Of a stretch of DNA of 64,000 bases, positions 26,249 through 30,928 are shown in pieces. Location: contig JACPNX010000038.1 in the NCBI GenBank assembly GCA_016185275.1, positions 1 through 64,000 of the forward strand, written 5' to 3'. Numbering within the stretch: position 1 is the stretch's first letter; every line of letters begins with the position of its first letter. Below the pieces are notes generated by a model. The model had not been told where the DNA came from, did no database searches, and was given only the letters and a program-made list of their open reading frames with translations. The DNA comes from Actinomycetota bacterium. Its GTDB lineage: Bacteria; Actinomycetota; Acidimicrobiia; Acidimicrobiales; Iamiaceae. The position numbers and the translations under genes are program-made.

Positions 26249-27166
26249 ATGTACCGGTTCGCTCGGCGGCCCCGCTGGATCGTCTCCCACCTGATCGTGC
26301 TGGTCATCGCCGTGCTGTTCATCCGGCTGGGGTTCTGGCAGCTCGACCGGCTGCACTACAAGCGCGACCGCAACACCCTGTGGCGCTCGCAGATGGCGTT
26401 GCCGGTACGGCCGGTGGAGACGTTGCTGCGCCCGGGCGAGTCCGACGCGACCGTCCACGCCGACCAGCTCCGGGTCGTCACCGCGACCGGCACCTACCTG
26501 CCGGGCTCGCAGGTGCTCGTCCGGGGCCGCACGCTGAACGACGTCCCGGGCTCGTGGGTGCTGGCCGCCTTGCGCCTGCCCGACGGTCGCATCGTCCCTG
26601 TCGTGCGGGGCTGGATGGCCAACGACGGTCGCTACGACGCGGTGCCCCGCGGCCTCGATCCTCCTGCAGGCCAGGTGACCGTCACGGGCTGGCTGCGCCC
26701 GCCCGAGCACCGCGGCCGCTTCGGTGCGGTCATCCCCGCGGACGGTCGCTTGACGAGCATCGCCCGGGTCGACGTCGCCCGCTACGGCCGCCAGATGGGC
26801 GCGCCCGTCCTTCCGGCCTGGGTGCAGCTGCGGGCCGAGCAACCCTCCACCCGCCCGGCCCCCACGCCCCCCAGGCCCCTGGCGCCGCCCGACCCCACCG
26901 ACCAAGGTCCGCACTTCTCCTATGCCATCCAGTGGTTCTCGTTCGCGGCGATCGGGCTGATCGGGTACCCGTTGATCCTGCGCCGCAAGGCCCGCGACGA
27001 GGCCACGGGGTCGGCGGGCGGGTTCCGCGGTCGCCTCGACCCGGCCGGACCCGACCCGGACGGACCGGACCCTCACGACGTGCGCGAGCCGGGCGATCCC
27101 CGGCTCGACGCGGTGAGCGGCGCGGAGCCGGTCGGGCCCGGGCGACCGGCCTCGCCGGCGCCGTAG
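26249..27166 (+). CDS. SURF1-family protein
   Basis: 305 aa. One N-terminal transmembrane helix (about 11-28) ending in L-G-F-W-Q-L-D-R-L-H-Y-K, the hallmark opening of SURF1, a periplasm-facing domain with V-R-G-R-T-L-N-D-V-P-G-S-W-V-L and V-R-G-W, and a second helix (about 230-247) after H-F-S-Y-A-I-Q-W-F-S-F-A. SURF1 helps insert haem a or otherwise mature aa3-type cytochrome c oxidase, implying an aerobic host. The tail is Asp/Pro/Gly-rich. Confidence 0.88.
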   Translation: MYRFARRPRWIVSHLIVLVIAVLFIRLGFWQLDRLHYKRDRNTLWRSQMALPVRPVETLLRPGESDATVHADQLRVVTATGTYLPGSQVLVRGRTLNDVPGSWVLAALRLPDGRIVPVVRGWMANDGRYDAVPRGLDPPAGQVTVTGWLRPPEHRGRFGAVIPADGRLTSIARVDVARYGRQMGAPVLPAWVQLRAEQPSTRPAPTPPRPLAPPDPTDQGPHFSYAIQWFSFAAIGLIGYPLILRRKARDEATGSAGGFRGRLDPAGPDPDGPDPHDVREPGDPRLDAVSGAEPVGPGRPASPAP

Positions 27167-27168
27167 CG

Positions 27169-27795
27169 GTGGACGACGGTCCCCGCGGCCGCATCCTGCG
27201 GGCCACGGTGACGGCCATCGGCCGGTACGGGATCGCCAAGACAACCATGGAGGACGCGGCCCGGGAGGCGGGCGTCGGCCGGGCCACGGTGTACCGGCAC
27301 TTCCCCGGCGGTCGCGAGCAGCTCATCCGGGAGACGATCACGTTCGAGGTGGCGAGGTTCTTCGCCCGCCTCGCCGACCAGGTGGCCGGTGCGCCCGACT
27401 TCGCGACCCTGCTCGAGCGGGGCCTGCGCTTCGCCCACCGTGCGGTCGAGGAGCACGAGGTGCTCCAGAAGGTGGTGGACACCGAGCCGGAGCGCCTCCT
27501 GCCACAGCTCACCGAGAGCGCGCCGATCGTCCACGCCGTCCTGCGCGCCTACCTGGAACCGCTGCTGGCGCAGGAGCGCCTGGCCGAGGGGGTGGCCGCC
27601 CCGGAGGCCGCGGACTGGTTGGCACGCCAGGTGCTGTCGTTCATCGTGGGTGCCGGTCGGTGGAACCTCGACGACCCGGAGCAGGTGCGCACGCTCGTCC
27701 GTCGCCACCTCCTCGCCGGCGTGCTCGCCGACGCCGGTGGCGCGCCGTCGCCGGCCGATCCCGAGGTCGCGGTCGCCGCAGCAGGCCCGGAGTAG
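27169..27795 (+). CDS. TetR-family transcriptional regulator (paralog 1)
   Basis: 208 aa. Helix-turn-helix around residues 25-50: T-T-M-E-D-A-A-R-E-A-G-V-G-R-A-T-V-Y-R-H-F, followed by P-G-G-R-E-Q-L. The ligand domain ends W-L-A-R-Q-V-L-S-F-I-V-G-A and T-L-V-R-R-H-L-L. It aligns over its whole length with the second TetR protein 1.1 kb downstream (same F-P-G-G-R, N/T-E-P-x-x-L-L-P and T-L-V-R-R boxes), so the two arose by duplication. GTG starts 2 nt after the SURF1 stop. Confidence 0.85.
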   Translation: MDDGPRGRILRATVTAIGRYGIAKTTMEDAAREAGVGRATVYRHFPGGREQLIRETITFEVARFFARLADQVAGAPDFATLLERGLRFAHRAVEEHEVLQKVVDTEPERLLPQLTESAPIVHAVLRAYLEPLLAQERLAEGVAAPEAADWLARQVLSFIVGAGRWNLDDPEQVRTLVRRHLLAGVLADAGGAPSPADPEVAVAAAGPE

Positions 27796-27798
27796 GGT
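27793..27798 (+). promoter_or_regulatory. -10 hexamer of the small membrane protein gene (leaderless)
   Basis: TAGGGT, overlapping the TetR stop codon, ends 6 nt before the ATG at 27805. Confidence 0.5.
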
Positions 27799-27804
27799 GC
27801 GGCC

Positions 27805-28143
27805 ATGCGTACGGGGGTCGGGTGGATCATCGCGGCGCTGATCGCGGGCGTGGCTCTGGGCGTCGGGCTGAGCAACGCGCTGCCCGAGCGGACGACCGTG
27901 CCTGCGGCGCGCCGCTTCCTCTGCGACGGTGATGCCACGTGGGCGAACCCCAGCCAGAACCCACTTCCGACCATCACCTGCACCGGCGGTCAGGACAACG
28001 GCGACAACGTGACCTCCTACGCGTCGGCCATCGTCATCGTCATCTCGGTGGCCGTCATCGGTGTGCTGACCGCGGTCGTGCTGCGCCTCACGGGCCCGCG
28101 TCGCCGGCGCATGATGGCCGGTCCCCGCATGCCCCCCCACTGA
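27805..28143 (+). CDS. Small two-helix membrane protein, unknown
   Basis: 112 aa. A first helix or signal anchor (about 6-25, W-I-I-A-A-L-I-A-G-V-A-L-G-V-G-L) is followed by an outer segment of about 45 residues containing two cysteines (R-F-L-C-D-G and I-T-C-T-G-G, perhaps a disulfide), a second helix (about 73-95) and a basic cytosolic tail (P-R-R-R-R-M-M). No family recognised. It sits between two TetR genes and has its own leaderless-type promoter. Confidence 0.6.
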   Translation: MRTGVGWIIAALIAGVALGVGLSNALPERTTVPAARRFLCDGDATWANPSQNPLPTITCTGGQDNGDNVTSYASAIVIVISVAVIGVLTAVVLRLTGPRRRRMMAGPRMPPH

Positions 28144-28260
28144 GCCGCCGCGCGCCCGCAGCCGGGGTGCCGACCCCCCGCCCCGCCCCGCTCCGCCCCG
28201 CCCCGCCTCGGCGCCGCCCGGGGGAAGCGTGACGCACTTCACCGGGACAGCGCCTTGTCG

Positions 28261-28292
28261 CTGAGACACTGAGGCTCGTACTGTCTCAGTGT
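28261..28292. promoter_or_regulatory. Overlapping inverted repeats: likely TetR auto-operator
   Basis: CTGAGACA (28261-28268) pairs with TGTCTCAG (28282-28289), and shifted by a few bases ACACTGAG (28266-28273) pairs with CTCAGTGT (28285-28292). The repeats cover the -10 hexamer TACTGT (28279-28284) and the GTG start codon at 28291 of the second TetR gene. A bound repressor would block both polymerase and, in a leaderless message, the start itself. Confidence 0.75.
28279..28284 (+). promoter_or_regulatory. -10 hexamer of the TetR-diiron operon (leaderless)
   Basis: TACTGT ends 6 nt before the GTG at 28291 and is embedded in the inverted repeats of the proposed operator. Confidence 0.55.
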
Positions 28293-28938
28293 GACGCCAG
28301 AGGACGCGGTGCGGGGCCGGCTGCTCGACGCCTCGCTGCGCTGCGTCGCCGCCCGCGGCGTGCGGGGCACCACCCTGGCCGATGTGGCCGCCGAGGCCCC
28401 CTGCGCCCGGGCCACGCTCTACCGGTGCTTCCCCGGCGGTCGAGCCGGGCTGTTCCAGGCGCTCGGGGAGCGCGAGCTCGGCCGCTTCGTCGACGCGGTG
28501 TGCGAGCCGCTGGCGGGCGCGCTCGACACCGAGGACGCGCTCACCACGGTGCTGTGCGGCGCCGCCCGTGCCCTGCAGGAGCACACGGCCTTCCAGTACG
28601 TCTTCCGCAACGAGCCCGACGTGCTGCTGCCGTACCTCGGGTTCAAGCAGGTGGACCGGCTGTACCGGGCCGTCTCGGTGCTCGCCGGCCCGCACCTCGC
28701 GCCCTTCGTCGGCCAGGACCAGGCGGGCTGGGCGGCCGAGTGGCTGGCCCGCACCGTGACGTCGTACGTGTTCTTCGCCTCCGGCGACGTCGACCTCACC
28801 GACGCCGACCAGGCCCGCACCCTCGTCCGGCGCTTCCTCCTGCCCGCCCTCGATCCGGCCGCGGCCGGTGCCGATGAGGGCAGGGACCGACCGTCTCACC
28901 GCCGTGCCTCCATGCAACCGACCCTCCAAGGGAGCTGA
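28291..28938 (+). CDS. TetR-family transcriptional regulator (paralog 2)
   Basis: 215 aa. The HTH is G-T-T-L-A-D-V-A-A-E-A-P-C-A-R-A-T-L-Y-R-C-F, again followed by P-G-G-R. The ligand-binding half keeps the boxes shared with the paralog at 27169 (R-N-E-P-D-V-L-L-P-Y-L, T-L-V-R-R-F-L-L). The promoter lies within an inverted repeat, so auto-repression is likely, and the diiron protein gene starts 1 nt after its stop; it should control that gene. Tandem placement and shared length suggest the two regulators sense related ligands. Confidence 0.87.
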   Translation: MTPEDAVRGRLLDASLRCVAARGVRGTTLADVAAEAPCARATLYRCFPGGRAGLFQALGERELGRFVDAVCEPLAGALDTEDALTTVLCGAARALQEHTAFQYVFRNEPDVLLPYLGFKQVDRLYRAVSVLAGPHLAPFVGQDQAGWAAEWLARTVTSYVFFASGDVDLTDADQARTLVRRFLLPALDPAAAGADEGRDRPSHRRASMQPTLQGS

Positions 28939-28939
28939 C

Positions 28940-30061
28940 ATGTCCTCCACCGAAGACCTCATCGGTCGCGCCGAGGTGAACGACCTCGAGTCGATCCTCG
29001 CCATCACCAACATCGACGCCGAGGCCACGGTCCGCTCGGTGGCCGACCACGCCGACGCCATCTTCACGTGGGACTACGAAAAGGGCGCCCGCCCCGCCCT
29101 CAACAAGCTGTACGAGAAGGCGAAGACCTCGCAGTGGAACGGCGAGACCGACCTTCCCTGGGACACCGAGGTCGACCAGGAAGCGGTGGTGATGAACAAC
29201 GCCGCGGCGAACTCCACCGGTCTCGACGACGGCATGGACGTGGCCGGCACGCCGTTCGAGAAGTTCAGCGACGCCGACTGGATCAGGGTCGGTGTGGAGT
29301 CGCAGAACTGGACGCTCTCGCAGTTCATGCACGGCGAGCAGGGCGCGCTGCTGTGCACCGCGAAGATCGTCGAGACGGTGCCGTGGATCGACGCCAAGTA
29401 CTACGCGGCGACGCAGGTGATGGACGAGGCCCGCCACGTCGAGGTGTTCGCCAAGTACCTCGACACCAAGCTGTCCGGGCACTATCCGATCAACGCCCAC
29501 CTCGGCCTGTTGCTCGACGACATCGTGGCCGACAGCCGCTGGGACATGACCTATCTCGGCATGCAGATCATGGTGGAGGGCCTCGCCCTGGCCGCGTTCG
29601 GCTTCATCCACCAGCTCACCACCGAGCCGCTCCTCAAGCAGCTCCTGCGCTACGTGATGAGCGACGAGGCCCGCCACGTCGCCTTCGGCGTGCTGTCGCT
29701 GAAGGAGTACTACGGCGAGCTGAGCGGCCCTGAGCTCAAGGAGCGCCAGGAGTTCGCGTTCGAGGCCGCCGTGCGCATGCGCGACCGCTTCTTGCAGCAG
29801 GAGGTGTGGGAGCGCATGGGCATGCGCCCGAAGGACGTCATCCCGCTGGTCATGCAGTCGCCTCAGCGGCAGCTCTTCCAGCAGATGCTGTTCACCAAGA
29901 TCGTCCCGAACTGCAAGAAGCTCGGCCTGCTCGACGCCAACGACAAGTGGCTGCGGCGGCGCTTCGAGGAGCTCGGCGTGATCCAGTTCGAGGACCTCGC
30001 CGACACCGGCGAGGAGTACGAGATGTTCGCCCTCGCCCAGGGCGACCAGCGCAGCGCGTAG
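28940..30061 (+). CDS. Ferritin-like diiron oxygenase-type protein
   Basis: 373 aa, mostly helical. A complete diiron ligand set is visible: Glu133 (H-G-E-Q-G-A), Glu163 with His166 (M-D-E-A-R-H), Glu213 (M-V-E-G) and Glu243 with His246 (S-D-E-A-R-H), spaced as in ferritin-like oxidases such as ribonucleotide reductase R2-like and AurF-like N-oxygenases. No radical-tyrosine assignment is attempted and the substrate is unknown. ATG at 28940 has AAGGGAG close upstream. It is co-transcribed with the TetR gene. A strong hairpin (30087-30112) follows. Confidence 0.82.
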   Translation: MSSTEDLIGRAEVNDLESILAITNIDAEATVRSVADHADAIFTWDYEKGARPALNKLYEKAKTSQWNGETDLPWDTEVDQEAVVMNNAAANSTGLDDGMDVAGTPFEKFSDADWIRVGVESQNWTLSQFMHGEQGALLCTAKIVETVPWIDAKYYAATQVMDEARHVEVFAKYLDTKLSGHYPINAHLGLLLDDIVADSRWDMTYLGMQIMVEGLALAAFGFIHQLTTEPLLKQLLRYVMSDEARHVAFGVLSLKEYYGELSGPELKERQEFAFEAAVRMRDRFLQQEVWERMGMRPKDVIPLVMQSPQRQLFQQMLFTKIVPNCKKLGLLDANDKWLRRRFEELGVIQFEDLADTGEEYEMFALAQGDQRSA

Positions 30062-30086
30062 CAACGGCGCGGCGCGCAGGGGGACA

Positions 30087-30112
30087 CGGGGGGCCGCTCC
30101 GGCGGCCCCCCG
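30087..30112 (+). terminator. Terminator-like hairpin after the diiron gene
   Basis: Perfect 11-bp stem CGGGGGGCCGC (30087-30097) / GCGGCCCCCCG (30102-30112) with a TCCG loop, 26 nt after the stop. No T-run follows. Confidence 0.75.
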
Positions 30113-30131
30113 TCGCGGCCGCCCTCCTCCA

Positions 30132-30243
30132 GTTCTGAGTGCACATCCCGTCGTCACGCGGCAGCCGATGTGATCAGAACGGGGCTTGCCGGGTTTCGAT
30201 CATCGATCCCGTCGGACGACGGCCCTTCCCGCACTCAGAACGG
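30132..30243. repeat. Cluster A of CCGTTCTGAGTGCG-type elements
   Basis: Three copies in 112 bp: GTTCTGAGTGC at 30132-30142 (plus), the variant GATCAGAACGGG at 30172-30183 (minus form of CCCGTTCTGATC) and CGCACTCAGAACGG at 30230-30243 (perfect minus copy). The same element family recurs 23 kb away at 53679-53804. The stretch is less GC-rich than its surroundings and holds no gene. Confidence 0.75.
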
Positions 30244-30271: not shown

Positions 30272-30928
30272 GTGGCCCGATCCGCCGACGCGGTGCGCCT
30301 GAGGGTGCTCCACGCCCTCCGGCTCGCGGGCTTGGCCGACACCGCGGCGGTGGCCGCCCGGGCGGGGCTGGCCGAGGCCGTTGCGTTGCAGGTGCTCGAG
30401 GCAGCGGCGAGCCGCGACGAGGTGCGCCGCCGCGAGGGTCGCCTCGCCGGATGGATCCTGACGTCGGCGGGGCGAGCCGCGGCCGAGGCGATGCTCGCCG
30501 CGGAGCTGGACCGGACGGGGGCGCGGCCCCGGGTCGAGCGCGCCTACGGGCGGTTCCTCGAGCTCAACCCCGAGCTGCTCGCGGCCTGCACCGCCTGGCA
30601 GGTCCGTGATCCGGCGCGCGGTGCCCTCAACGATCACACCGATGCGCGCTACGACTCGGCGGTGGTCGACCGGTTGGCGGCGGTACACGACTGGGTCCGG
30701 CCGATCTGCGTCGACCTCGCGGCCGCGCTCGACCGGTTCGCCGGCTACGAGTCCCGCATGGCCAGGGCCCTGGCCCGGGTCCGGGCCGGCGAGACCGAGT
30801 GGTTCGCCCGGCCGCTGGTGGACTCGTACCACACCGTGTGGTTCGAGCTCCACGAGGACCTGCTGGCCACGCTGGGCGTGGCCCGCGAGTCGGAGTCGGA
30901 GACGGGCTCGGGTCCGATCCGGAGCTGA
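30272..30928 (+). CDS. Possible winged-helix regulator, unknown
   Basis: 218 aa, soluble. The first 80 residues (V-R-L-R-V-L-H-A-L-R-L-A-G-L-A-D-T-A-A-V-A-A-R-A-G-L, then a basic R-R-R-E-G-R-L-A-G-W-I-L-T-S-A-G-R) have the helix-turn-helix-plus-wing look of MarR-like proteins. The rest is helical and contains L-E-L-N-P-E-L-L and W-F-E-L-H-E-D-L-L. I cannot name a family. The start is set by the leaderless-type promoter rather than a possible upstream ATG at 30170. Confidence 0.65.
   Translation: MARSADAVRLRVLHALRLAGLADTAAVAARAGLAEAVALQVLEAAASRDEVRRREGRLAGWILTSAGRAAAEAMLAAELDRTGARPRVERAYGRFLELNPELLAACTAWQVRDPARGALNDHTDARYDSAVVDRLAAVHDWVRPICVDLAAALDRFAGYESRMARALARVRAGETEWFARPLVDSYHTVWFELHEDLLATLGVARESESETGSGPIRS

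Follow-up and report, generated by a model that had tools for sequence, protein, structure and literature searches.

A putative operator at the start codon of a TetR gene and the R2-fold oxidase that it may control in Acidimicrobiales

What switches on the gene of a predicted di-metal oxidase that stands behind two TetR-type regulator genes, and what might its product act on? The question is raised by a locus in a 64-kb stretch of DNA from contig JACPNX010000038.1 (hereafter the window; the whole assembly is 3.44 Mb), where SURF1 is followed by TetR1, a small membrane open reading frame (ORF), TetR2, a diiron gene, a conserved ORF without a family and genes presumed to be dapA and RNase J. The best reading, which we hold with moderate confidence as the main explanation and which is built on sequence comparisons, is that of an autorepressed, probably acyl-responsive oxidation switch, in which TetR2 would bind the inverted repeat TGAGAC-N15-GTCTCA, placed 3' of the -35 region and 5' of the start codon in a probably leaderless operon made up of tetR2 and the diiron gene. 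A TetR autorepressor placed before an oxygenase gene is a known principle; the novelty lies in the subfamily of the enzyme and in a split operator that adjoins the start codon.

The outer inverted repeat, CTGAGACA/TGTCTCAG (28261-28289), had already been noted in the first-pass annotation; it spans the hexamer TACTGT and ends beside the GTG at 28291. In its core (28262..28288, forward strand) the distance between the half-sites is two helical turns. Among all dyads in the 200 nt 5' of TetR2, GAGAC-N15-GTCTC ranks first, with 52 occurrences in 82 loci against a maximum of 3 in five shuffles. The 12-base site is present exactly in 30 of the 60 named loci with a TetR gene directly upstream, and with at most two mismatches in 54, a frequency to be compared with a chance rate of about 1% of 230-nt stretches (our own arithmetic, for uniform bases). 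The exact operator followed by the TA of the -10 region was found 26 times in 61 related genomes and a control pattern not once; 25 of these sites adjoin TetR2-like genes, and around the odd one out, in genome G053, lie none of the queried genes. The outer repeat is thus a real, conserved putative operator and not a product of chance. The own genome holds a single exact copy, at the tetR2 promoter, and as far as exact sites go a wide regulon was rejected; when as many as two mismatches are allowed there are 28 matches, versus 11 for the reversed control. A second repeat described earlier, ACACTGAG/CTCAGTGT (28266-28273 and 28285-28292), does exist, but neither the inner nor the outer positions of this repeat show conservation, and it was discarded as a second operator; apart from the promoter hexamers and the half-sites of the outer repeat, no position carries more than 0.6 bit of information. 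Among the literature matches listed for TGAGACA there was no paper on such an operator. One bearer of the operator is a cultivable relative, Aquihabitans sp. G128 (L081). Four loci (L017, L046, L066 and L013) carry a further TGAGAC-like half-site about 17 bp 5' of the operator.

Aligning the loci on the operator revealed TTGACG or TTGACA just 5' of the left half and TAnnGT over the right half. The corresponding elements of the window, both on the forward strand, are the -35-like TTGTCG (28255..28260) and the -10-like TACTGT (28279..28284), which are separated by 18 nt; the latter overlaps the right half-site. At least four of the six bases of TTGACA are matched in 64 of 75 distinct loci, and TAnnnT occurs in 72. 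A standard promoter scan of the window, tuned to the sigma-70 consensus, returned nothing. In 71 of the 75 loci an in-frame start codon follows 0-5 nt past the operator (starts of orthologues were taken from tblastn and are approximate), and for this reason the tetR2-diiron transcript is probably leaderless; from the spacing of the hexamers and the GTG, the predicted +1 would lie at or next to the start codon. Since the operator fills the interval from the -35 region to the start codon, bound TetR2 would block RNA polymerase for its own gene and for the oxidase.

The genes themselves are widely kept. Diiron homologues were found in 44 of 61 related genomes and in 12 of 80 genomes sampled across the phylum, the own genome being counted in both; near relatives of the enzyme were found only within the class, and remoter ones in further families elsewhere in the phylum. 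The matching named loci belong to Acidimicrobiia/Acidimicrobiales. Of 80 named loci, 73 with 850 nt of upstream sequence were used and 7 were dropped, and in 60 of the 73 a TetR gene immediately precedes the diiron gene (this survey overlooked the divergent TetR1 of L076). TetR1 is also present in 44 of the 63 named-genome loci that have TetR2 and the diiron gene. Across the order, the arrangement SURF1-TetR1-TetR2-diiron has been retained. The gene-neighborhood set of 141 loci, the operator-alignment set and the half-site-variant set mix contigs L062-L141 with further genomes and include duplicates; alignments A1 and A2 consist of 42 and 51 selected rows, with L129 outside A2 and several row ends shortened at a stop codon. 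In the literature searched, whose coverage leaves out most subscription papers, we recognised no description of the gene set. Contigs titled Bifidobacterium breve (L071, L075, L077, L078, L095 and L116) bear Acidimicrobiia-like sequence, and their record names look wrong. TetR genes of other subfamilies lie directly 5' of diiron paralogues or cousins in L182, L131, L140, L224, L227 and L228, which suggests that the pairing of a TetR protein with an oxidase may have arisen or been exchanged repeatedly; among the distant cousins, a TetR gene is directly 5' in L224, L227 and L228 (the TetR identity was checked for two of the genes), and none was seen there in L225 and L226. Tandem diiron genes are found at L066:5001-7223, between TetR2 and a dapA-like gene, the second being about 59% identical to that of the window.

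TetR1 (27169..27795, forward strand, 208 residues) begins 2 nt 3' of SURF1, and TetR2 (28291..28938, forward strand, 215 residues) starts with its GTG 2 nt 3' of the operator. Both proteins score above the Pfam cut-off for TetR_N (E-values of 1.4e-11 and 6.1e-9, respectively) and share 39% identity over 202 aligned columns; the first-pass annotation had rightly called them paralogues. In a tree of 148 rows they form separate clades (Shimodaira-Hasegawa-like approximate likelihood ratio test, 98), a tree that retains the doubtful rows L061, where one protein stands for both regulators, and the long-branched TetR1 of L018. As the two are old groups, the duplication is probably older than the radiation of these families; TetR1 is the slower-evolving paralogue. 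The TetR2 model (predicted local distance difference test, pLDDT, 91.5) is helical, with fold matches at Z 12-14.7; TetR2 thus combines the TetR_N helix-turn-helix with an all-helical ligand domain, as expected of the TetR family.

Which regulator binds had been left open; TetR2 is now favoured as the predicted reader of the operator, since its own gene lies behind it, since the palindrome is kept where TetR1 is not clearly present, and since a residue of its recognition helix tracks the right half-site. No clear TetR1 was found in G061-G065, G069 and G070, which keep the palindrome together with TetR2. The helix residue is the one preceding S/G/A-R-A-T, a Cys before A-R-A-T in the window protein. 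The count covers 78 loci, selected for a best operator with no more than three mismatches and an accepted left half, the others being dropped; the residue was unread in 5 of them for TetR2, and for TetR1 it was unread, or TetR1 absent, in 22. Loci with Cys or Tyr at this position have GTCTC in 42 of 46 cases, and those with Val, Ile, Leu or Met in 8 of 27 (Fisher p 6.6e-8). Within 200 nt upstream of TetR1 the best dyad reaches 4 of 60 loci, the level of the shuffled sequences, and an operator of its own for TetR1 was rejected. In L139 the operator lies 99 nt 5' of the diiron gene with no TetR gene beside it, suggesting that the enzyme is the regulated target.

What might release TetR2? In profile searches of the PDB its first match is Dietzia AlkX (5ydp, 3.3e-16, profile positions 4-162 of 181), and next come FadR of Bacillus halodurans and then Rv3249c. 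The fold comparison puts Rv3249c (Z 14.7) and AlkX (Z 13.8) first, and QacR and a FadR from an archaeon follow closely. It has been reported that palmitate lowers DNA binding by AlkX (PMC9430723), that AlkX responds to C10-C24 fatty acids and its long operator is read as bound by a dimer or a pair of dimers (PMC8784404), and that R2lox binds a fatty acid (PMC4118035). The own genome also encodes a diiron paralogue, 53% identical, in the order acyl-CoA dehydrogenase, TetR (of another subfamily), diiron gene, with an AMP-binding, acyl-CoA ligase-like gene downstream. Together, these likenesses make an acyl or long-chain inducer our best guess, with perhaps an even chance of being right, given that the switch is real. 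A small hydrophobic ligand, likeliest a long-chain fatty acid, an acyl-CoA or a related substrate or product of oxidation, as for AlkX, would release TetR2; the freed promoter would allow synthesis of the R2-fold enzyme, which may hydroxylate or desaturate compounds of the ligand's class. In this way, the enzyme would probably be switched on only when its target, perhaps a fatty one, is present. The ligand-induced oxidation system proposed from the first reading is supported by the conserved gene order, by the operator and by its place in a probably leaderless promoter; the share given to the membrane protein is not supported.

The AlkX systems (Dietzia; Rv3249c in Mycobacterium tuberculosis; alkB/alkW1-rubredoxin) likewise place a TetR repressor beside the diiron oxygenase that it controls, and among proteins of solved structure AlkX comes closest to TetR2 in profile searches and is one of the leading fold matches. 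However, the AlkX enzyme is the membrane protein AlkB and the one found here a soluble R2-fold protein, alkX lies 3' of the enzyme genes whereas tetR2 lies 5', and the identity between the two regulators is about 23% in the fold alignment. The neighbors of TetR2 are SURF1, TetR1 and the R2-fold gene rather than alkB-rubredoxin. QacR, whose operators take two TetR dimers on one long site, resembles TetR2 in having half-sites about 20 bp apart as well as in fold; it differs in controlling an efflux pump and in not being known to repress itself.

Several observations weigh against the acyl-responsive switch run by TetR2. TGAGAC-N15-GTCTCA was not evident in three AlkX-type loci (L221-L223); identity with the AlkX operator was therefore rejected, and TetR2 is distinct from AlkX. 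The fold comparison narrows down the class of inducer only weakly, as fold matches within one Z unit are tied and QacR, a drug binder, and FadR stand near AlkX; the acyl-gene context belongs to the 53%-identical paralogue and not to the window locus. The best TetR candidate elsewhere in the genome of L139 has no operator nearby. Eight loci with an aliphatic TetR2 residue keep GTCTC, and four with Cys or Tyr lack it. In a tree made without the DNA-binding part, the helix and half-site traits change seven times each, with two pairs of changes on supported branches, so that the covariation is not significant once relatedness is counted and may be caused by shared descent. Finally, the left half stays TGAGACA where the right half is TGTTCCA or TGTAACA.

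A plain homodimer does not explain this constancy, and it is the basis of an alternative in which TetR1 and TetR2 act together, as a heteromer or as a pair of homodimers, with one half of the operator for each, and the diiron gene answers two ligands. The left half is constant like the TetR1 helix residue, which is aliphatic in all of the 56 loci, out of 78, in which it was read, whereas the right half varies along with TetR2. A TetR1 match is present in most loci with an altered right half, TetR1 and TetR2 remain adjacent in 44 of 63 loci, TetR1 is without a conserved dyad of its own, and the 20-bp spacing of the half-sites hints at two dimers side by side or at cooperation with TetR1. However, TetR2 alone may suffice, since genomes in which no clear TetR1 was found keep a perfect palindrome; TetR1 may govern a separate regulon, and the comparison draws on few independent clades and on metagenome-assembled genomes, which are incomplete. 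We regard joint action as unlikely. Slightly less likely still is the full form of a two-regulator gate, with an operator split within a leaderless promoter, in which the helix of TetR2 and its half-site changed together while TetR1 kept the other half, and the oxidase is made when two signals agree. In L061 the operator is symmetric (TGGAACA/TGTTCCA); the assignment of its TetR protein is unsure.

Returning to the switch governed by TetR2, what kind of enzyme would it control? The diiron gene (28940..30061, forward strand, 373 residues) opens with an ATG 1 nt past the TetR2 stop codon. The ligands proposed from the first inspection, E133, E163, H166, E213, E243 and H246, are present at those numbers and invariant in 42 aligned homologues, which upholds the complete ligand set. 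The model (pLDDT 87.6) has a helical core with the E, ExxH, E, ExxH pattern of R2-like folds, and its top fold matches, tied and judged among those listed, are R2 and R2lox proteins: 4m1h (Z 22.6, 262 residues, root-mean-square deviation 3.1), 7qbp (Z 22.4, 244 residues) and 7qbk (Z 22.4). Diagnostic positions were placed by presumed offsets from the ligands rather than by structural superposition. In class I R2 of ribonucleotide reductase, which shares the fold (4m1h) and the ligand pattern, the radical Tyr lies seven residues after the first ExxH Glu, and in class Ic a Phe takes its place. Here the position is an invariant F170, which by itself does not exclude R2; the Pfam Ribonuc_red_sm score is 18.9 bits against a cut-off of 33.6, and no gene for the large subunit adjoins among the genes read. 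With R2lox the protein has the fold (7qbp, 7qbk) and the ligands in common but reaches 34.7 bits with the NCBIfam R2lox model against a cut-off of 194, and the crosslink positions are A136 and M208, both invariant, in place of the Val (V72) and Tyr (Y162) that form the ether crosslink (PMC4118035).

Could the enzyme instead be an AurF-type N-oxygenase acting on an amine that TetR2 senses? The Pfam AurF profile (PF11583) matches at 32.1 bits, above the gathering threshold of 29.6, and all 42 homologues match at E 0.001. AurF has a seventh metal ligand, a His that precedes the Glu of the last ExxH by four residues, and by offset this position is a nearly invariant V239; moreover, the PDB profile hits at E 0.01 include no entry with N-oxygenase in its name, and CmlI ranks 47th by fold. 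We consider an N-oxygenase improbable. The enzyme lacks residues diagnostic of R2lox, of radical-bearing R2 and of AurF, and we file it as a putative R2-fold di-metal oxidase of an uncharacterised subfamily; the searches made found no function for it. Another alternative assigns the regulators to the control of iron or of oxidative stress and makes the enzyme a storage- or peroxidase-type ferritin-like protein, as its ferritin-like superfamily ligand set and the adjoining cytochrome oxidase assembly gene SURF1 might suggest; it is very improbable given the R2/R2lox fold over some 250 residues and the lipid-metabolism TetR repressors that are nearest to TetR2 by sequence.

An orphan oxidase is thus kept by most of the genomes sampled from an order that is widespread and poorly cultivated, and the inducer of TetR2 would name its substrate class, to which the single-site, self-contained operator offers a direct handle. 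The loci also offer a natural series, in which half-site variants are paired with helix variants, for studying the joint change of repressor and operator. If the two-regulator gate were true, a subfamily of R2-fold oxidases would be produced only on two agreeing signals.

The small membrane ORF between the regulators (27805..28143, forward strand), of 112 residues with two hydrophobic segments and Cys40 and Cys59 between them, has no Pfam match. The first-pass annotation had suggested that it could take part in the system and had looked to the four genes recurring together; the membrane protein alone fails in this, as tblastn of the 141 loci found homologues beside TetR2 only in loci of the own genome and in none of the others. 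In the 61 genomes its own locus matched strongly and three weak matches lay elsewhere (E 6e-4 to 0.009), and most gaps between TetR1 and TetR2 are too short to hold it. It was accordingly rejected as a component, and we judge it to be a genome-specific insertion that is not part of the system. SURF1 (26249..27166, forward strand; Pfam SURF1 8.8e-39) lies upstream of TetR1 and TetR2 in many loci and is probably ancestral synteny, outside the switch.

A G+C hairpin follows the diiron gene (30086..30113, forward strand), with a perfect 12-bp stem, a 4-nt loop and a folding energy of -46.8 kcal/mol over 30060-30125 (z -2.04). The terminator predicted there was borne out as to the hairpin but not as to a run of T residues, and the terminator scan gave 0; an intrinsic terminator was rejected for this reason, and a U-less terminator is possible. 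Further downstream lies the conserved ORF of 218 residues (30272..30928, forward strand; no Pfam match), which in 27 locus records, the own one and some duplicates included, starts no more than 400 nt past the diiron gene. It is a frequent neighbor of that gene and is probably separate from the switch. The gap between the two genes holds an inverted repeat, GTTCTGAGTGC / GCACTCAGAAC, at 30132-30142 and 30231-30241 with 88 nt between; its words were not seen in the other loci having the 218-residue neighbor, save for one weak CTCAGAG. An extra copy of GATCAGAACG lies near 30172, in the same gap.

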